The notes under the pieces are model-generated. The model was given only the letters and a program-made list of their open reading frames with translations. It made no database searches and had not been told where the DNA came from. Source: Branchipolynoe longqiensis (lineage: Eukaryota > Annelida > Polychaeta > Phyllodocida > Polynoidae). From it: a stretch of 64,000 bases of DNA. Position 1 is the stretch's first letter. Each line of letters begins with the position of its first letter. Position numbers and translations under genes: made by a program. The stretch is from NCBI GenBank assembly GCA_030323885.1, contig CM059189.1:48243015-48307014 (forward strand), given 5' to 3'. Of this stretch, positions 13,823 to 57,075 are shown in pieces.

Positions 13823-15658
13823 CCTCATCATCATCCTCATCATGCTGTTGGTCGCGATGCGACAAAGACTGCTTTCATTACTTGACTGCCGCTCTCCATT
13901 TAGCTCTCTGCTGTGACAGTTGTGTCCATGAGTCGGTCTTAATGTCTCTCAGCTTCAGGTTTCTCTTGATGGTATCCCTGAACCGGAGACGAGGGCGCCC
14001 TCTCTTTCTGTAAGCAGAAGACAGTTGAGAATAGAGGATCTGCTTTGGTAGCCTGTCTGATGACATCCTAATGAGGTGTCCAGTCCAGCAGAGATTCTTT
14101 TTGATCAGAAGATCTTCCATAGAGGGCAGCCCCGTCCGTTCGAGTATTTCCTTATTTGTCACTTTGTCCTTCCAGATTAGCCTCATGATTGAACGCAGAT
14201 GTCGCATCATAAAGGCATGCAGCTTTTTCAGCTGTCGTATGTACACTGTCCAGGCCTCGGCTCCGTATAGTAGGGTGGATAGTGTAGTGGTCTGCACTGA
14301 CCTCTCAGGCAAGTAACCACATAGACAGGTAGGCGTGGGGAGTGTGTTGATATCAGGGAGCCTAGGTGGTGTAATGGTTAGCACACTGGCCCGGAATGCA
14401 AAGAGATGTGGGTTCGAGTCCCGCTCTAGGCACAATATTTCCCATTTTCATCACCCCCACGACACTGGTTGCCGTGATCAGGATCCTGTACAAGCTTTGC
14501 GCTGTATGGTTGTTGAACCTACCCTGTGTATGTATGTGTTAGTGCATTGCCTGTATGTATGTAATTGTAAGCATTACAAGACTTACAATTCCTGGGGGAC
14601 GAGTGTAGTGGTCTGCACTGACCTCTCAGGCAAGTAACCACATAGACAGGTAGGCGTGGGGAGTGTGTTGATATCAGGGAGCCTAGGTGGTGTAATGGTT
14701 AGCACACTGGCCCGGAATGCAAAGAGATGTGGGTTCGAGTCCCGCTCTAGGGCAATATTTCCCATTTTCATCACCCCCCGACAATAGTATGAGTCAGTAG
14801 ATCTTGCCTTTGAAATGATGGTGGTTGTTCCAAGTCTCTGGCGTAGTCGGCCGAAAGATGCGCTAGCTTAGCCATCCTCCGCTGTATTTCGCATCAATGC
14901 ATCCTCACTTGATATATGCTTCGAGGTAGGTGAATTCCGAACAGAGTCAGTTGTTACCTCCCATGATCTCTTCCTCCTCTGTTTTGTAGAGTCTGTTCGA
15001 TCACCTTTCTGTAGATGGTTACAATGCTGGCATCCTTCCATGCTTGGGTACAGAACCCTCCTCCCAGGCATTGGTGATTAGTTGGTGCAGTTGTTGAACA
15101 GATTGTCTCCTCCGTGCTTCCATACTTCAGCAGGAATTCCATCACCCCCAGGTGCTTTGCCATCTTTCAGGCTGGCGATTGCTCTAGCCATCTCATCCAC
15201 GGTTGGAATCTCATCGAGGCATGTTTTGGTAATCGGCTGCTGGTTGTTGTCCAGAACTTCGTGATCTATGTCACCAGGGAAGTTGAGTAGCTTCTGGAAG
15301 TGTTCACTCCATCTTGCCACAACTCTCTTGCTGTCAGAAAGGGTCTCCATTCCATCTGTTGATTTCAGGTGAACAGGTCCCTTCTTCACGGGTCCCCACA
15401 CTTCCCTCAGTCCACTGTAGAAACCCTTCATGCTGTTTCTGTCTGCAGCTCTCTGCAGATCCTCTACCTTCATTTCCCACCAGTCTGACTGTTGTGTTGT
15501 CTACGACCTGCTGCAAAGCTGCCCATTCCTCATCTGGTGTTGGGCTTTCCTTCTCCTCCCAGTTTGCGAGAGCATTGTCCATCTCCCGCTCGAAGCTCTC
15601 CCTGTGATTGATGGTACTTAGTTTTGCTGTGTTGAGCTTGGTCGGTATTGGTAGGACT
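13823..15658 (-). pseudogene. LINE-A non-LTR retrotransposon, broken
   Basis: Minus-strand remnant of a non-LTR element. Reading from the 5' side, 15582-15078 encodes the region before the reverse transcriptase and its first block (LKDGKAPGGDGIPAEV, a typical RT motif). The RT core with the FADD box is deleted. About 14300-13878 encodes the C-terminal domain (LLYGAEAWTVY, LCWTGHLIRM, RGRPRLRFRD). The 3' end at 13823 is a (GAT)n-type tail, as in RTE-like elements, but I do not assign a clade firmly. SINE-B sequence interrupts it at 14286-14780. Several frameshifts; not functional. Confidence 0.85.
14286..14780 (+). mobile_element. SINE-B, two tandem copies in LINE-A
   Basis: Two blocks share AGTGTAGTGGTCTGCACTGA, the tRNA-like region and CAATATTTCCCATTTTCATC. 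The tRNA-like parts are 14360-14432 and 14681-14754. In the first, a 7-bp acceptor stem closes with one G-T pair, the D arm GTGTAATGGTTAGCAC and T arm GTGGGTTCGAGTCCCGC are intact, but the anticodon stem does not pair. So it is tRNA-derived rather than a tRNA gene. A third copy is at 33261. Confidence 0.75.
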
Positions 15659-17536: not shown

Positions 17537-17579
17537 TTTGTCGTAATGCTTGCATTGCGGTTGATGCGAGACAGGGAAG

Positions 17580-18713
17580 GTGGCCCCCCCGTCTCTCCTC
17601 CCCCCAGCCCTCCCCCTACCCCTGAGCGGTTCGCCGCCCCTCTCTCCACCCCCCGCCGCACCTCCTCCCCCGCCCCTGCCCCCGCCCCTCCCCCCCCCGA
17701 CCACGACCTCAGCGAACCTATCGCAGATGTGGTTGACCCCCACATACATCTGGCCCCACGCCTCCGGCGAGGCCTGGGCCAGGTACCCCACATTCACTCG
17801 GGCCTACTCTGCCCTCAGGGAAGCGGGCCTCCCCAATTTTTTGGCCGCCCGCATCCCCCTACCCTCCGGCCTCCACATCCCTGCCTGGCGTGCTCGCCTC
17901 CGCGACTACCCCGACCCCGCCCTCCTAGACCTCCTCGAGTTTGGCTTCCCCTCGAACTACTCAGCCCCTACCCCCCCGCCCTACCTTCACCAACGACCGC
18001 GAGGCCCCGAGCACACCCCGCACATAAGCGAGTTCATACGCACTGAGCTCGCCCTTGGCGCCCTCGCCGGCCCCTTCAATGTCCCCCCTTTCACCCCGTG
18101 GACCCGCCCCAAGTCCGACCCGGGCAAGAGGCGGGTCATCGCAGGCATCCCTCGCCGGGAATACCTCGGCAGACCCCACACCTATAGCCTCCCCTCAGTC
18201 ACTGACGTTGGCCACCGCCTCATCGGCGAGGGATCGGGGGACTACACCTGGTCTGCCGACATCTCTCGAGCTTACCGTCAGCTCCGTGCCGACCCCCTCT
18301 CCTGCCCCCTATACGGGATTACGCTTGATGGCCTCACCTACGTAGACCTCGCCCTGCCCTTTGGATGTCGCTCCTCGGGCGCGGCATGCGTGCATGTCAC
18401 GGCTGCAGTCGCGTGGATCCTCCGCCACGACGGATTCCATGCGCTAGTCTACGTAGACGACTTTGTCGGGTGCGAGGGCTCCTACCTGAGGGTGTGCCAG
18501 GCCTTTGATGCCTTCCTCGCCCTCGCCGCTGCCCTCGGGCTCGAGGTCGCCCCTGGGAAGTGTCATCCCCCTGCTGTCCGTCTGACATGGCTCGGCTTCA
18601 CCCTGGACAGCGAGGCGATGATTATCCGCATTGCCCCCGACAAGGTAGAGGACCTCATCCTGGCATGTGAGACCCGGATCGCCCGCCCAGCCCTCGGGCG
18701 GTGCGAGCTCTAG
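17580..18713 (+). pseudogene. DIRS-B reverse transcriptase
   Basis: An open frame of about 377 codons, with a proline-rich start; the first ATG is at 17727. RT motifs in order: a Lys/Arg region RPKSDPGKRRVIAGIP, motif A YTWSADISRAYRQL with its aspartate, motif B-like PFGCRSSGAACVH, catalytic LVYVDDFVG, then LTWLGFTLDSE. The frame ends at a TAG (18711-18713), but downstream codons in the same frame continue the connection domain (LLGRLNHVSSCILPAHKFM), so the stop is probably a later lesion or a readthrough point. It copies the element RNA into DNA together with the RNase H. Confidence 0.85.
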
Positions 18714-19360
18714 AGCCTCCTCGGGCGCCTGAACCACGTTAGCAGCTGTATACTACCGGCCCACAAATTTATGAGCCGCCTCCTCGGGGCGCTCCACCAC
18801 TGTTTTGGCTGCGCCTCAGGTGGTTCGCCCTCTACGGTCGCGCCTCCAATGGCCTCCACCTCCTCTGCGCTCCGGAGGGGCGCCGTCACATCATCGAGTG
18901 CGACTCCTGCCTCTCTGGTGGGGGGGGGGCGTACTCCGCCATGCACTGCTACACCCGAGGGTACTCCCCCGCATTCTGGGCGCGCTTCCCGGATATCCAC
19001 GAGCTGGAAGCGGTTAACCTCGTTGTCGTCCCCCGCACCCTCCTTCCTGATGATGTCGCGGGGGCGACCATGGTGATTAACACGGACAACATGGGGTCCG
19101 CCGCCTCCCTCGAGTCAGGGCGTGCCCGGGATCCTACCCTCGGGACCTGCGCCCGGGAGCTCTGGCTCCTTGCCGCCACCGGCTCCTTCACCCTCTCCAT
19201 AGTGCACAAGCCCGGGGTGGACCTCGTCCTCGTGGATGCCCTCAGCTGCGCTCACCTCATCGGCCCATGGGCCGAGTTGGCCCGCACCGAGGTCACTCGC
19301 GTCGGGCTGCACTACATTCACCTGACCCATGACGACTTCCCCTTTAACCCGGGCCTGTGA
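18714..19360 (+). pseudogene. DIRS-B RNase H region
   Basis: After the connection domain, 18941-19360 and the frame before it give the acidic residues of RNase H: ECDSCLSGGG, HELEAVNLV, MVINTDNMGSAAS and LVLVDALSC. A G run at 18920-18929 accompanies a frame change. The frame ends at a TGA at 19358-19360, overlapping the recombinase frame that begins near 19329. Confidence 0.8.
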
Positions 19361-20346
19361 TCCAGGTTTCACCTCGGCCGAGGTCGACAGCGTGGATTGC
19401 CTCTGCCTCACCTCACTCGCCCCCACGACCTGGAGGAACCGCCGCCTGCAGGCCGAGGACTACGTCGCTTATCTCGTGGCCCGAGGGCTCGACCCCCTCG
19501 CCCCCTCCAACTTTGACGTTGCCGCCTACGCCGCCTCCCTCTACGCCCGTGCCCTCGCCCCTGCCTCAGTGAAGAACGCACTCTCGGGGGCGCGCTCCGG
19601 GGGGGTCCACCTCGGACTTCGACTGCCACCTCGCCAAGGACGTCTGCCGAGGTGGCGAGCGCATATCAACCCATGTCCCGCGCCAGGCACTGCCACTCAC
19701 TCCCGAGCACCTCGCCCTTGCCATCTCACACCTCACCCGGGCGGGGCCCGCCTCCATCATTCCTCGGGCCGCCCTCCTCCTCGGGTACTTCGGGATGCTG
19801 AGGCAGTCTGACCTGCTCTACCCGAGCCCCGAGGGCAGGGGCGGCCCCCACACCATCACCCGAGGAGACGTTCGCCCTGCCCCCGGGGGGCTCCGGATCC
19901 TCATTAGAAGCTCCAAGACCATTTCCGCTCCCTCGGGAGTGGTGGCCCTCTTCGTTCCCGCCTGCTCACGCACCGAACTCTGTGCCGTCACGGCCTGGCA
20001 GGCTGCCATCCACCAGCTGCTGGCCCCGCCTGATGCCCCGTCCTTCATTATGCCCTCGGGCCGTCCCCTCGACCCACAAACTCTCACCACCCTCCTCCGG
20101 GGTGCCTTGCGTGCCCGAGGCGTCCCCGCCTCAGAGGCCTTCACCCTCCACAGCCTCCGCCGCGGCGCCACCCAGGCATGCCAGAGGACAGGCGTGCCCA
20201 TCCCCGACATTATGGCCCAGGGGACCTGGACCTCTGAGGCGGTGCACGCAGACGTGCCCCGCCTCGCCCCTTCGGCCGCCCCTCGAGCCCTCTCCTCCAT
20301 TTTGGTGGAGGGCTTATCGGCTCCACCTCACGGACTCACCTCATAG
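19329..20346 (+). pseudogene. DIRS-B tyrosine recombinase, Tyr replaced
   Basis: 19329-19605 encodes the core-binding domain (WRNRRLQAEDYVAYLVARGL). A frameshift near 19605 moves to the frame that ends at the TAG 20344-20346. The catalytic domain shows LLGYFGMLRQSDLL (first arginine) and LHSLRRGATQ (HxxR). Where the nucleophile is expected, 34 residues after the histidine, there is aspartate (HADV, codon GAC). DIRS-A has tyrosine at that spacing. With the frameshift and this change the enzyme should be inactive. Confidence 0.8.
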
Positions 20347-36296: not shown

Positions 36297-36694
36297 TTTA
36301 TTTATTTTATTTTTTTTATTGAGGCTGTATTTATACTGTCCATAGCATATAAGCCCGGGTACCCAGGCTTGTTTTCAATGCTGGCCAGTTGTAGTGTTGG
36401 TGTTATCTTACCACACAGTGGCTGCTGATAAGGTATTTGATTGCCTGCATTTCAGTAGCAGATAGATAATTGGTTGGTATGGTTAATAGCCTATGTTAGT
36501 TTTTTTGGATTTTCTTGGTATATATGTATTTATTTTTTCTACTCTTATTACTAGACTAGCCTACTCCTATTTACATATCATAGGCTTGTATGTAGCTGTG
36601 TGGTGTGCTATCTGGCTACTTTTGGCATGGTTACCTTCCATTGGGCATCCCGCTGGTGGGCCGTGACATATCACATGCCCCTTTGCAGTGCAGC

Positions 36695-37575
36695 TTAGTG
36701 GGGGTTTCCTAGCATTATTTTGCGCAGATATTTTTTGTATGTTTTTAGGTCAGGAATTTGTCGTTCCTTTACTGTTTGGGCATTCCATACCTTGGCAGCC
36801 ATTTCCAGCGTGCTTCTCTTGTGAGCTTTTATTTGGCTTCTGGTCTGCTTTAGTAGTGGTGCATTATTTGCTCTTTTGGTTCTTTTGTGTATGTCATAGG
36901 TGGGGTGCAGCTTGTTTACTCTGATCATGCAGATTTTCAGGGCTCTGTTCGGTAGTGTTTGCAATTTTTTTAGAAGTTCTTTTTTGGCACCCATGTAGTT
37001 TACATCTCCATAGTCATAATAGTGGAGCACCATGCCCTTGAAGATTTTTATTGACATTTCTTGTGTCATGTAGTCTCTTAGCTTTGCAAATAGCCACAGT
37101 TTGTGGTTTATCTTTTGGACAATTTTGTTTATACATAGGTTGTAATTTAGTTGGCTGTCCAACTCAAGACCTAGGTATTTGTAATGGTCTACATTTTCTA
37201 GTGTTTGGTTTCCTAGCTTACAGTGTAGTTTTCTTTCTGGCATTTGTTTATGCGAGAAGAGAACTGTTTTTGACTTGCTTGTGTTGATGGTTATTTTGTT
37301 GGACTCACACCACTCATCCAGTTTTAGTAGGAGCTGGTTTAGTTTAGTTATTACCTCCTCTTATGTGGTGCCATTTGCCTATATGACTGTGTCATCTGCA
37401 TATAGCTGGAGGCATTTGGTTTGCAACCATTTTTCAAGATCGTTTATGTAGATTATAAAGAGCAGTGGCTCTAACACTGACCCTTGTGGTACACCACATA
37501 TGACAGGTTGGTTGTCTGATAGTGTATTGTTTATTTTTGTTTTCTGTTGCCTTAGTAAAGCATGTTAGTGAGATA
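36695..37575 (-). pseudogene. LINE-B RT, C-terminal half
   Basis: Begins at the deletion junction with QQKTKINNTLSDNQPVICGV, then PQGSVLEPLLFIIYINDL (RT block with GVPQGS), LQLYADDTVI with the YADD catalytic pair, and stops inside ANGTT. After another break, 37243-36695 encodes VDHYKYLGLELDSQLNYNLC, LHYYDYGDVNYMG and LQTLPNRALKICM, the thumb and C-terminal domain of CR1/Jockey-like RTs. It lacks the fingers and endonuclease, so it cannot work. Confidence 0.82.
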
Positions 37576-38186
37576 GCATAATCCTTATTGTAGTGGATTT
37601 CATCAGTCATGCCAATGCCATACCGTGCCGATCTCTTCCCATGCCTTGTCTTGTGGATGTAGTTTGCATATCTAGGGATGTCCACACCCTCTATCTTGTT
37701 AGCATTTAGGTGGTGGATGTAGGCATTTATTTCCGGTATGCATTCATCTACCAGTCTCTGGTATTCCTGGTTTCTTTTGTGGCCACAGTACATTTCCATG
37801 TCCATGCCCACAAGTTTGCAGATTACTGGCATCTTTGTTAGTGTGCTGAGTGTGTAATGAGCTTGTTTGTATTCCTGTTCCATGTGCTTCATGAGTTTCT
37901 TCTTGGTCTTAAATGCTGGTATTAGATCTCTGTGGCCCACTTTTTTTGTTAGGTCACAGATTCCAGCCATGAGGTATATTTGTCCTGGTGGAGTGTTTTG
38001 TGTGTACTTCCTGCACACAGCGCTTGTTATCCTGGCAATAGTCGCTCCTGGCACAGAGACTATTACTTCTCTGTATTTTGGTGTGTTGTCATTTAGGTCC
38101 TTCAGGTGGGTGGTTAAGGCTCTGGTTCTTGAGTCTCCACTAATCACGATCGTTTCCTGCATTTTGCTATCTGTTCGTCGCTTCAA
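37560..38186 (-). pseudogene. LINE-B SGNH/GDSL esterase domain
   Basis: Encodes a SGNH hydrolase-type domain of about 200 residues. IVISGDSRTRAL gives the GDS block with the nucleophile serine; VPGATIARI gives the second-block glycine; QIYLMAGICDLT stands where GxND is usual; MTDEIHYN has the DxxH of the catalytic triad. Esterase domains of this type occur in ORF1 of CR1-group LINEs, where the role is thought to involve lipid or membrane contact. The frame is continuous from 38186 to the RT junction. The block III asparagine is missing. Confidence 0.75.
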
Positions 38187-38370: not shown

Positions 38371-38797
38371 CTAGGGTTTCTTTGAGTTTTTGGAGGATGT
38401 CCCCATTTGATTTTTGTAACCTTGTTTTATTGTTTCGCCTTCATTCCCTGAGCCCCAGTATGGGCACTTTGTGCATTTCCTGAATGCATTCCCAGAGGCA
38501 TTTATTAGCTTTTCTTTTAGCTCTGTTTTGTGTGAATTTTGCATGGACGATATCCTCCAGCACTTTTTCATTTGTTTTGCACCATTCTGGTGATTGCCAT
38601 ATTTCTTTTGCCATTGCTTTTATTGTGTATGGGTTGTCCATGTTTTCGATCATTCTCATTATGTCATGTTTATCGTGATATTTGGCCATTATTGAGCAGT
38701 AGTATTGCTCGGCTGAGGTGTATTTTTTTCCTTCCTTTCCTGTGACTTCGCACTTGTACAGGTTACTAAAGGGGGAGTTGTGGCCTTGGAATGACAC
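38371..38797 (-). pseudogene. LINE-B NADAR (YbiA/DUF1768-like) domain
   Basis: 38797-38441 reads FQGHNSPFSNLYKCE, KKYTSAEQYYCSIMAKYHD, DNPYTIKAMAKEIW and VLEDIVHAKFTQN, matching the family pattern SPFSN-y, saEqyyq-K and l-aKF-qn. One frameshift near 38530 moves to the frame at 38571, which supplies the end of the fold: LKEKLINASGN and KCPYWGSGN (family: LL-tg, pyWG-G). NADAR proteins act on NAD/ADP-ribose-related N-glycosidic bonds; some remove ADP-ribose from guanine bases in nucleic acids. A role in this LINE is inference. Confidence 0.8.
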
Positions 38798-39548
38798 TCC
38801 CAGGGGTGTTCCCTTGTTGCAGCCTTTTCTGGTGTGATCTCTTGAATCTCGATCTCTCCGAACTCCTTGGGTGTGTAGGTTTTCCCATTTATCTCTATGT
38901 TACACCCTTTCATTTTGATCGATTTTATTTTGTCACTTTTGGTCTCGAGGGCAAGTGTGTACATTTGTTGTACTGTTTTTTCACTCAGCATTTCCATTCC
39001 TGTCCTTACTGGTCTAATTTTGACTTTATTGTAGTCTTTTTTGGCCTGGAGTGTTTTTTTCTTCTGGAAGAGTTCTTTTTTTTGTTACTCTTTCTCCAGC
39101 TGGATTTTTATACTCCTCGGCCTGGTTTGGACTTTCTCAGTGGCCTGGACATGTTCTTCTTTTGTTTCCTCACCTTGGCTTTTGTTTTCAGCCTGCTCGG
39201 TATTGTCAGGTGGTTTTTTTTGTGTTGTTTCTTTTTGGTTTTTTTTCCTAGACGGAAGGCCTTAGTCACTACTGTCCAGCCAAAGTCGCAGTCCGCTTCT
39301 TTTAGCATGTCAGTGATTGTTTCCTGAATGCTTTCATTTTCTTTTTCGGGGATGCCGTGGACTATAACACTGAGTTTTTTTTCCTCAGTTTTTGGTTTGA
39401 TTGCCTGATTTTGGGTCGCTTCCGTTTGCGGCTTCTTCTTATCCGTGGGCATTGTCCTGGTGTTGGCATTTTTGCTTACATATTTGCTTACATTTTCATT
39501 GGTCTGTTTTGGGGTGTTTTTTTTCGTATTCTGCCTTGTACCATGCAC
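38689..39548 (-). pseudogene. LINE-B ORF1, RRM-like region
   Basis: 39548-39108 is lysine, threonine and glutamine-rich, then LSVIVHGIPEKENESIQETI and VTKAFRLGKK, the HGIPE...AFRLG pattern of RRM-like ORF1 proteins. 38997-38800 (MEMLSEKTVQQMYTLALETK and NIEINGKTYTPKEFGEIEI) links it to the NADAR domain. Frameshifted between the two. Confidence 0.65.
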
Positions 39549-39813
39549 ATTCTATCTGCAGCATGTCATATGCTACTTGTAATGCTTGTAGTTTGGTTTT
39601 GCAGTCATTTCCGTTAGTTTTGTTGTTAGTTTTGTTGTTTCCGTCGACAATTTCCGTGTTGTTCGTTCCATTTCTATTTCCATAATTCATGTCCTTATCT
39701 TTTTTTTTGGCTTCCTTCTCCAGTTCTTCCCTGACTGTTCTTATCACCAGTCTTAATATGTCGTCCTTGGTCATTTGTTCATCCTTCATTTTATTTTTAT
39801 TTTTATCCTGCAA
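39496..39813 (-). pseudogene. LINE-B ORF1 N-terminus
   Basis: A charged, probably coiled-coil start: LRLVIRTVREELEKEAKKKD, an asparagine-rich linker, then KLQALQVAYDMLQIECAWYK. The first ATG on this strand is downstream of a 5' leader of about 250 bases. It resembles ORF1 of other LINEs in layout only. Confidence 0.5.
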
Positions 39814-43457: not shown

Positions 43458-44069
43458 CTAAGTCAACTGAAGCTTAGCAATCCTATCACCCGGCTTCACC
43501 ACCTGATAAAAAAAAAAATGTATCCATCGCCTAATATCAGAAGTCATGCCCGGCCAATAGAAACGCCAAGCCAAATGCTTCATGGAGAGAACTCGTCCAA
43601 AGTGAGTGGCTGTAGAATGCCCATGGCAAAACATCAATACATCATTGTGCAATGCAAACGGCACAATGATCTGCAGGCGACTGGGTAGCTCTGCTCCCAC
43701 TACTTTCCACCTGCAGAGCACACCCTCATGCAGTTCAAGCAGGTCCCACTGATTTACAATCTTGTGAGTCTCTGCATTCTCCACCGCCAGCTCCTCATGC
43801 AAAGGCTTTGAGCGTCCCTCCTCCAGCCACCTGATTATACGCAGTATGGAGGAGTCTTGGTGCTGCGCCAGACACACCTCGGATAATGTCCATAGTTCAT
43901 CATCATCTATCTCCACCAGACGCATTGCAGATATAGCTGTGAGCACACAATTATGCACATCGCAGTCCGTGCAGTCACTCAGCCCGCACTTGCGAAACAG
44001 AATCCTACTCAGGCTGTCTGCGTTGATATGATCGACCCCCTTCCTGTACACACTGTGCTCATTTGGCAC
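43458..44069 (-). pseudogene. Gypsy-2 integrase zinc-binding domain
   Basis: Starts with the end of RNase H (VDHINADSLSRILF) and carries the HHCC histidines: FCHGHSTATHFGRVLSMKHL and WRFYWPGMTSDI. The two cysteines expected after it are replaced (WIHFFFYQVVKPGD). The catalytic DDE core is absent. It is in frame with the RNase H piece, separated by one TAG. Confidence 0.8.
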
Positions 44070-44072
44070 ACC

Positions 44073-44606
44073 CTATTCAGATGGGGTGGCCAACCAACGC
44101 CCCATCATCCCCTCGGCCTCCTTGAAATTCAATAGCCACCGAAGAGAGTGATGATCCGTCCGGATAATAAAATCTGACCCCACCAGGAAGTGCTTCCATT
44201 TCCTGCTATACACAACAATAGCCATCAATTCCCCTTCCATCGTGCAGTAGTTCCGCTGTGCTATATTATGTTTATTACTAGCAAAAGACAGCGGGACCTC
44301 CACTCCATACTGAACCTCACTTAAAACACCGGATATCACAAACCCTGATGCATCCCTGTCAAGAATAAACTGCCCCACCGCTCTTGGATAGCGTAACACC
44401 GGGTTCTGAGTGAAGGCTCGTTTCAGGCCCAGAAATGCCTCCTCCTGAGCCTCGCCCCACACAAATTTTCTTTTCTTTGTGGTGACGACCAATTCCTGCA
44501 GGGGTTCAGCCAACTGCACAAAATCAGCAATGAAATCGCTGTAGTATGACACAAACCCGAGGAACGATCTAACCTTCTTCATGTCCTCAGTCCTGGGCCA
44601 CACCAT
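44073..44606 (-). pseudogene. Gypsy-2 RNase H
   Basis: RSFLGFVSYYSDFIADFVQL is the RT thumb. RKFVWGEAQEEAFLGLKRAF and GQFILDRDASGFVISGVLSE are the RNase H start with its first aspartate; NYCTMEGELMAIVVYSRKWK and FIIRTDHHSLRWLLNFKE follow. All expected blocks are present. Confidence 0.88.
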
Positions 44607-45363
44607 AATCGCAGAGTTTCTCCGGGTCTGCTTTAATCCCCCCTGCAGAAACGATGCAGCCTAAGTACTGCATCTCTCGTCTAAAAAGCTTACACTTAGA
44701 GGCCTTGAGCTTTAGTCCATAGGATCCCAAATGATTGAACACTGCTTGAAGCCATTCCTGGCATTCCTTAAGAGTTTGACCGAAGACAATGACATCATCT
44801 AAATATACTAGGCAGATCTTCCACTGAAGACCAGCCAGCATATCTGCCATCATCTTTTCAAACATGGCCGGTGCATTACAAACCTGATCGGCATTACGTT
44901 CCACTCAAACAAGCCTAGATGAGTGCTGAACACAATCTTAGCAATATCATCTGGATCCATCGCTACCTGATGATAGCCCGATTGCAAATCCAGTGTGCAA
45001 AAACACTCATTCCCACCCAAACTCTCGAGTGACTCATATATGTGTGGTAACTGGTAAGCATTTTTCCACATCACAGTGTTGAGTTTTTTATAGTCAATAC
45101 ATAAGTGGATGGAACATTCTTTCTTCTTGACTAAATGGACTGCTGAACTCCACGTGGGAGTCACTGCTATTAATCACCCCACTATCTAACAGCTTATGTA
45201 GCTCCATCTCCAGTGCATCATTTTTAGAATGCACGAAGCGCCGATAGGGGATCCTAAAAGCGGTGGCATCGCTTACATCAATGCTATGCTTTACCACCTC
45301 AGTCCAGCCCAACGTCTCACGAGGAACTGCAAAAACTTGAAAATTATTTTCTAAAAATCTCAC
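44587..45363 (-). pseudogene. Gypsy-2 reverse transcriptase
   Basis: In three frames: 45363-45094 (LDSGVINSSDSHVEFSSPF), 45164-44850 (CIDYKKLNTVMWKNAYQLPH, FCTLDLQSGYHQVAMDP with the motif A aspartate), 44904-44587 (APAMFEKMMADMLAG, CLVYLDDVIVFG with YLDD, GLKLKASKCKLFRREMQYLG). At least three frameshifts separate these and the RNase H. Confidence 0.88.
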
Positions 45364-56140: not shown

Positions 56141-56335
56141 CTGAGATAAATATATTAGGTTGATCGTTATATAAAAGATCCCTTGCTGCTTATCGGAAAG
56201 AGTAGCCTATGTGGTGGCAGTGGCCGGGTTTCCTCCAAAGAAATACGTCAGAATGACCATATGTTTGATGTCAAATAGCCAATGATATGAAAATCAATGT
56301 GCTCTAGAGGTGTCGTTAAATAAAACAAGCTTTAT
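56141..56335 (+). mobile_element. SINE-D (mollusc-type tail) in a MITE-R2 scrap
   Basis: After a MITE-R2 scrap (TCTGAGATAAATATATTAGG), 56170-56335 reads AAAAGATCCCTTGCTGCTTA, GCGGGTTTCCTC-like sequence, TGTTTGATGTCAAATAGCCA, CAATGTGCTCTAGAGGTGTC, GTTAAATAAAACAAGCTTTA. I recognise this as a widespread invertebrate SINE 3' region, common in molluscs. It ends about 15 bp before the GPCR splice acceptor. Confidence 0.7.
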
Positions 56336-56351
56336 TTTACTTTCCAACCAG

Positions 56352-57075
56352 ATACATCGCCATCTGCTACCCGTTGCAAGCCCGGATATTAATCACCCGA
56401 CGCAGATCCTATCTGGCCGGCGCCGCCATCTTTGTTCTCGCTGTCGTCTGCAACCTGCCGCGCTTCTGGAAAGAAACCATCGACACGATGGCGTGCGTGG
56501 GTGACTGGAGCGTGTACCTGCGATGGAAGGGAGTCTTCCACGGCCGACCTGTCCTCTTTCTCGCTTACTGTTCCGCTTACTTTCTCGTCGGCACAGTCAT
56601 CCCTTTCTCGGCGCTGGTCTTCTGTAACGCCCGTCTCATCAGCGCGCTGCGCAGATCGCTTCAGCACGAGCGCGATCTCGGTCAGAACGTGCGCTGCATG
56701 GACGAGAGCGGCATCTGGCGGATTACGCTCACACTAGTACTAATCGTCGCCATGTACATGGTGCTCGTGGTGCCCGTGGAGGTGAGCATCTTCGTCCGCC
56801 ACGTTGCGGTGCAGTCGCCGTCGATTACCACGTCGTACAACCTCGTTCTCGCCGTGCTCAACGTGATGCAGGCGTGCAACTTCGCGTTCCACTTCGTTCT
56901 CTACTGCATCGTCAACGTTCACTTCAGACAAACAGTGAAGCATGTGTTCAAATGCACGAAGCTCTCAGGTAAAACTGCCACGTCGTTAAGGGTGGGTGAG
57001 GGTGGTGGTGAGGCGGCGTCTGTGCCCGCACATCATGCGCGCGCATCGAGCAGTTCCGGTATGGTACACGTTTGA
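56352..57075 (+). CDS. Peptide GPCR, last exon (TM4-TM7, tail)
   Basis: Begins with A completing the arginine codon, then YIAICYPLQ, the usual continuation of the DRY motif. With the previous exon the partial protein is 313 residues. TM4 is about residues 92-112 (LAGAAIFVLAVVCNLPRF), the second loop has one cysteine (C121), TM5 about 140-165 with P157 and CNARLISALRRS behind it, TM6 about 196-220 (LIVAMYMVLVVPVEVSIF, proline kept, CWxP motif absent), TM7 about 235-259 (NVMQACNFAFHFVLYCIVNV, NPxxY replaced). The tail ends at TGA 57073-57075. A good donor word (CAG/GTAAAA, 56966-56972) offers an alternative exon end. The receptor should sit in the plasma membrane and bind a neuropeptide; the ligand is unknown. 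Confidence 0.9.

Follow-up and report, generated by a model that had tools for sequence, protein, structure and literature searches.

NADAR proteins reverse the ADP-ribosylation of guanine, an activity that includes one eukaryotic NADAR, and in the E. coli C7 enzyme the lysine K95, the counterpart of K50 in the Phytophthora nicotianae protein, is reported to be essential for efficient hydrolysis (PMC11543638, in the passages available). The domain has already been mentioned in retrotransposons: from Repbase matches, in the first open reading frame (ORF1) of Tx1 long interspersed nuclear elements (LINEs) of the oyster Crassostrea gigas, and likewise as a conserved domain in Pol of Gypsy long terminal repeat (LTR) elements of Ectocarpus (PMC12477816). 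As a bare fact, NADAR in a LINE ORF1 is thus already known, and the passages of that paper at hand contain no catalytic or selection analysis of the C. gigas domain. Among the open-access papers listed in our searches, with subscription papers and preprints outside the scope, we recognised no further report of NADAR in LINEs.

Here we describe a NADAR-bearing LINE in a window of 64,000 nucleotides, the whole stretch of DNA analysed (contig CM059189.1 of the Branchipolynoe longqiensis assembly GCA_030323885.1, positions 48,243,015 to 48,307,014). We found that the NADAR segment closes an ORF1 protein as its C-terminal domain, in a young LINE present in many copies in an apparently animal genome, and we read it, with a probability of about 0.5, as the ligand pocket of an RNA-binding ORF1 protein that serves for recognition or for an altered reaction. 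Like the C. gigas Tx1 elements, this LINE joins a NADAR/YbiA-type domain to an animal LINE ORF1; unlike them, as far as the account in PMC12477816 goes, its lineage has lost the lysine, carries an extra SGNH-like ORF in older copies, and has a GVPQGSVLGP-type motif in its reverse transcriptase (RT). The lysine loss, the strength of selection, the co-resident families and the added SGNH-like ORF do not appear in the literature passages found.

A constrained NADAR domain at the end of ORF1

In the window, the minus-strand open frame 38899-38441 matched PF08719 (NADAR) over residues 40-130 in a search with the Pfam hidden Markov model (HMM; E = 6.5e-11, 43.2 bits against a cut-off of 35.1), and it matched PDB entry 8bau by sequence (E = 0.0014). 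The domain runs on the minus strand through a first frame at 38510..38782 (SPFSNLYKCEV ... AKFTQN) and, past a frameshift, a second at 38371..38523 (ELKEKLINA ... CPYWGSG). The HMM evidence is that of the first frame, significant on its own, as the frames were not joined for that search; the second was placed by its translation (P0001) and by tblastn with the intact ORF1 of a relative (L014), of which residues 344-436 align in the first frame and residues 437-483 in the second, with the break near window position 38523. The first-pass annotation, which had read a NADAR domain from SPFSN to PYWGSG with one frameshift, was therefore correct. A chance resemblance was ruled out, since the HMM score and the PDB match by sequence agree with the fold and with the intact copies.

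Using a close relative from ENA (P0002; 74% identity over 61% of the query), we obtained at least 150 matches in the genome that the window comes from (1.85 Gb); 150 of 2,477 candidates were scored, all of them matched, and the weakest had an E value of 1e-93. We took 20 of these loci with long flanks, chiefly favouring those with long open frames: the RRM-like segment and NADAR occurred in all 20, the endonuclease in 19 and the RT in 18, in that order and on one strand. Among the eight loci L001-L008 taken with 1.5-kb flanks, six showed endonuclease homology downstream (L001 and L021 are one and the same locus). Four of the 20 combined a stop-free ORF1 frame with a stop-free ORF2 frame of 960-972 amino acids (L010 being truncated just inside ORF1). 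In L014 and L022, NADAR closes ORF1 (E = 5e-20 and 6e-19), and the adjoining ORF2 matches PF14529, PF03372 and RVT_1 in Pfam, an APE-type endonuclease plus RT as in two-ORF APE-type LINEs. The layout is an ORF1 made of a helical part, an RRM-like part and NADAR, followed by an ORF2 made of the APE-type endonuclease and the RT; NADAR scored 61-73 bits with PF08719 in the ORF1s of three relatives. No relative was confirmed in viral contigs.

The family looks young, because its long copies are nearly identical and carry A-rich ends: in 16 within-subfamily comparisons the main aligned block was 94-99.8% identical, over at least 4.7 kb in 13 of them, and A-rich 3' ends were found in 11 of the 13 relatives shown.

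We found NADAR to be constrained about as strongly as the endonuclease and RT, the enzymes that define the element. Between L014 and L022, which represent two subfamilies (NADAR dS 0.60), the ratio of nonsynonymous to synonymous substitution rates (dN/dS) was 0.107 for NADAR (bootstrap 0.058-0.200), compared to 0.096 for the endonuclease and 0.135 for the RT. Elsewhere in ORF1 it was 0.08 in the RRM part, 0.10 in the stretch before NADAR, 0.29 in the N-terminal part and 0.79 in the linker. Close pairs within a subfamily gave NADAR values of 0.13-0.26, which rest on few changes and are noisier and partly higher. Taken with the intact ORF1-ORF2 copies, this purifying selection bears out the proposal of the first-pass annotation that NADAR is a LINE-encoded domain.

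An altered pocket and other NADAR families

The domain has the YbiA/NADAR fold, and its pocket departs from that of characterised relatives. Compared to the P. nicotianae NADAR (8bau) and E. coli YbiA (2b3w), the LINE lineage, besides being fused to ORF1, shows K50 replaced by Met, R79 by Lys, R93 by Asn, Ser or Cys, and D130 by Cys. The Met was present in all 12 aligned sequences of the window lineage and the Cys in all 11 that include its region, whereas the K50/K95 position was Lys in 8 of 8 bacterial or phage rows; the lysine of a guanine-ADP-ribose hydrolase is thus absent from this lineage. By contrast, the glutamates equivalent to E43 (12/12) and E125 (11/11 with that region) were kept, and both tryptophans were invariant wherever aligned. 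The proteins P0004-P0010 from a profile search, 43-57% identical and all with PF08719, share the Met.

A second set from the profile search (P0013-P0017; 23-28% identical) consists of ORF1-like proteins with a C-terminal NADAR that has Lys in four and Arg in the fifth. In the same genome, P0013 gave 96 matches, 71 of them outside the list of P0002 matches; as that list comes from 150 scored candidates out of 2,477, some of the 71 may belong to the window family as distant copies, and three are stand-alone-like exons. Stop-free frames of at least 400 amino acids were present in 49 of the 71, and the lengths that recurred among the 71 were 467 (21 matches), 463 (7), 474 (6) and 506 amino acids (4). 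The one 467-residue frame sampled (L049) has kept all of E, K and E. Multi-copy frames of 463-506 amino acids are exemplified by C9:36490328-36491104 (-). The genome thus contains one or more further NADAR ORF1-like families, probably several, and the one sampled bears the lysine; these families are presumed LINEs. The stand-alone-like NADAR exons lie at C3:44965546-44966595 (+), two in tandem within one 364-residue frame, and at C18:16441483-16441953 (+), one in a 200-residue frame.

In a NADAR tree that left out the bacterial row L058 and animal stand-alone NADARs, 18 ORF1-type domains split from 9 stand-alone ones with support of 98/95, yet on long branches, two rows being long-branched and the stem of the window lineage measuring 2.99. 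The split only hints at a single origin of ORF1-type NADARs.

The window copy, its SGNH-like ORF and its neighbours

The copy in the window itself is dead, belongs to the SGNH-bearing kind of this LINE and lies wholly on the minus strand. Its degraded ORF1 (38375..39807, by tblastn with the L024 and L014 ORF1s) comprises the N-terminal helical part, the RRM-like part and NADAR, and is split over further frames. A separate SGNH-like ORF follows (37550..38162), and then the C-terminal half of ORF2, with the RT from the PQGS motif on (36698..37552; 70% identity by tblastn to the L025 C-terminal ORF2 frame, residues 85-395), and an A-rich 3' end at 36500..36560. The RT remained below the RVT_1 cut-off (E = 0.033), and its homology by tblastn begins at residue 662 of the L014 ORF2. 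As ORF1 is broken by frameshifts and ORF2 lacks its endonuclease together with the N-terminal half of its RT, a point absent from the first-pass annotation, we consider the copy dead.

For the RRM-like segment (38911..39410; tblastn, best identity to relatives 65%), the first-pass assignment held in part. An AlphaFold2 model of the intact L014 ORF1 showed the order beta-alpha-beta-beta-alpha-beta at residues 154-275 with moderate local confidence, in a model that is poor as a whole (pLDDT 48.8) and that served for secondary-structure order only; Pfam made no RRM call in the three ORF1s scanned (E up to 0.1).

The same holds for the esterase that had been proposed beside it: an SGNH-like ORF clearly recurs, and its identity as an esterase is weakly supported. 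The ORF gave 141 rows in the genome, of which one is the window's own and two are pieces of one place. Among 20 SGNH-like loci, GDSR was present in 15, GICDL in 17 and DxIHY in 13, which we take to be SGNH motifs; the window copy reads GDSR, GICDL and DEIHYN. The window ORF stayed below the PF00657 cut-off (E = 0.017), two stop-free copies, L032 and L036, gave no match of this type when scanned, and the ORF had no PDB match. Of the 19 other loci fetched, 14 had NADAR upstream, inside the 1.5-kb flank, and 18 had the endonuclease downstream. Because the young copies fetched mostly lack the ORF while L026 retains a trace of it between its ORF1 and endonuclease, the sequences suggest that it was present in older copies and has since been lost. 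It is an ORF of its own between ORF1 and ORF2 and does not lie inside ORF1, unlike the type IV ORF1, in which, as far as PMC4120745 was available, the esterase is an ORF1 domain and occurs in vertebrate groups only. Elsewhere in the genome, an SGNH-like match lies within an 1823-residue open frame at C4:6241311-6241757 (-).

The motif GVPQGS[VI]LGP was present in the L014 RT and in 92 of 138 proteins examined, 120 of which are listed ORF2 homologues. We take this motif to be Jockey/CR1/L2-like rather than L1/Tx1-like; the best PDB matches of the RT were to the L1 (E = 5e-14) and R2 (E = 8e-11) enzymes. The helical N terminus and the RRM-like order upstream of NADAR resemble the Type II ORF1 (coiled coil-RRM-C-terminal domain) of CR1/L2 lineages, and the C-terminal NADAR sets the protein apart from all five ORF1 types described in the available part of PMC4120745.

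Elsewhere in the window, an RT (RVT_1, E = 1e-8) at 17565-20343 (+) is followed by a weak tyrosine recombinase match below cut-off (PF00589, E = 9e-4), presumably a DIRS-like element. Adjacent open frames at 43458-44660 (-) encode an LTR-retrotransposon-type RNase H (E = 3e-23) and an integrase zinc domain (E = 7e-11), a rhodopsin-type G protein-coupled receptor exon, on which together with the LINE relatives we base the reading of the genome as animal, lies at 56320-57072 (+; 7tm_1, E = 9e-11), and two tRNA-Ser(GGA) genes or tRNA-derived repeats stand about 250 bases apart at 14360-14433 and 14681-14753 (+).

Possible roles of the ORF1 NADAR

We hypothesize that the ORF1 protein would bind the RNA of the element through its RRM-like part, and that NADAR would provide it with a pocket to accommodate an ADP-ribose-like or nucleotide-end group on element RNA, cDNA or a host protein. 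Because Met stands in for the phosphate-coordinating lysine and Cys for the aspartate, the probable function of the pocket is to recognise a ligand, or to act on one whose phosphate contacts differ, and not to hydrolyse guanine-ADP-ribose as DarT1-linked NADARs do. Several points weigh against this. A Lys located two positions further along (SVMAKYH) might conceivably substitute, although P0007-P0010 have N or M there; the D130 column hinges on a one-residue gap; the AlphaFold2 model is ligand-free and was built on a relative instead of the window copy; the RRM assignment rests on a poor model; and the proposed ligand and target are putative. In a bolder form, which we regard as possible but doubtful, this lineage, found in several sources, would have made of a NADAR hydrolase a conserved ADP-ribose reader that no longer hydrolyses (or a new-substrate enzyme) in ORF1, while at least one co-resident family keeps the catalytic lysine.

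Alternatively, NADAR may be a folded module that aids ORF1 protein multimerisation or the holding of RNA, in a structural or chaperone role for which the pocket is a relic. Its position after the RRM-like part, the altered phosphate-contact residues and the long stem branch would all fit; but a relic pocket would not need the ribose-contacting glutamates and the tryptophans, which are invariant wherever aligned, and we consider this role unlikely.

The idea of the first-pass annotation that NADAR strips host-made guanine ADP-ribose from LINE RNA or cDNA as a counter to a host defence is, as it stands, not supported. The reported reversal of this modification by NADARs and the strong constraint on the domain speak for such a role, as does guanine-N2 ADP-ribosylation of DNA in shellfish, which has been proposed to act in innate immunity (PMC8053099, as far as available). 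However, the window lineage has Met and Cys at the two positions concerned, and the shellfish parallel may not extend to the host here: a search for mollusc haemocyanin (PF14830) gave no match, although with a silent control it has no bearing on absence. As the lysine is needed for efficient hydrolysis, removal of ADP-ribose is less likely than binding or catalysis by an altered pocket, and overall we hold the counter-defence role to be improbable. Given the shellfish precedent (PMC8053099), it keeps some appeal for the lysine-bearing families (four of the five database proteins, with Arg in the fifth, and L049). Searches for a host ADP-ribosyltransferase (Scabin-like PF22596, ART PF01129) gave no match, but the controls were silent too, so that they have no bearing on its absence.

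That a host NADAR gene or pseudogene landed by chance in or beside a LINE is very improbable: the genome does have the stand-alone-like exons on C3 and C18, but these are distinct, being 46-49% identical to P0018 where the other matches listed for it, LINE copies included, reach at most 37%, and the ORF1-NADAR arrangement recurs genome-wide in intact ORFs.

What NADARs do physiologically outside DarT operons and in eukaryotes, including animals, is described as unclear in the available part of PMC11125620, and a LINE that holds a NADAR under selection about as strong as that on its RT offers a tractable test of what the pocket does. If the domain has indeed become a reader or a new-substrate enzyme, retrotransposon ribonucleoproteins would sense or act on ADP-ribosyl marks carried by host proteins or by nucleic acids. 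Should the pocket prove important, it would add a C-terminal domain outside the five known types to the repertoire of LINE ORF1 proteins (PMC4120745, as far as available) and would link ADP-ribosylation to the life of animal mobile elements.
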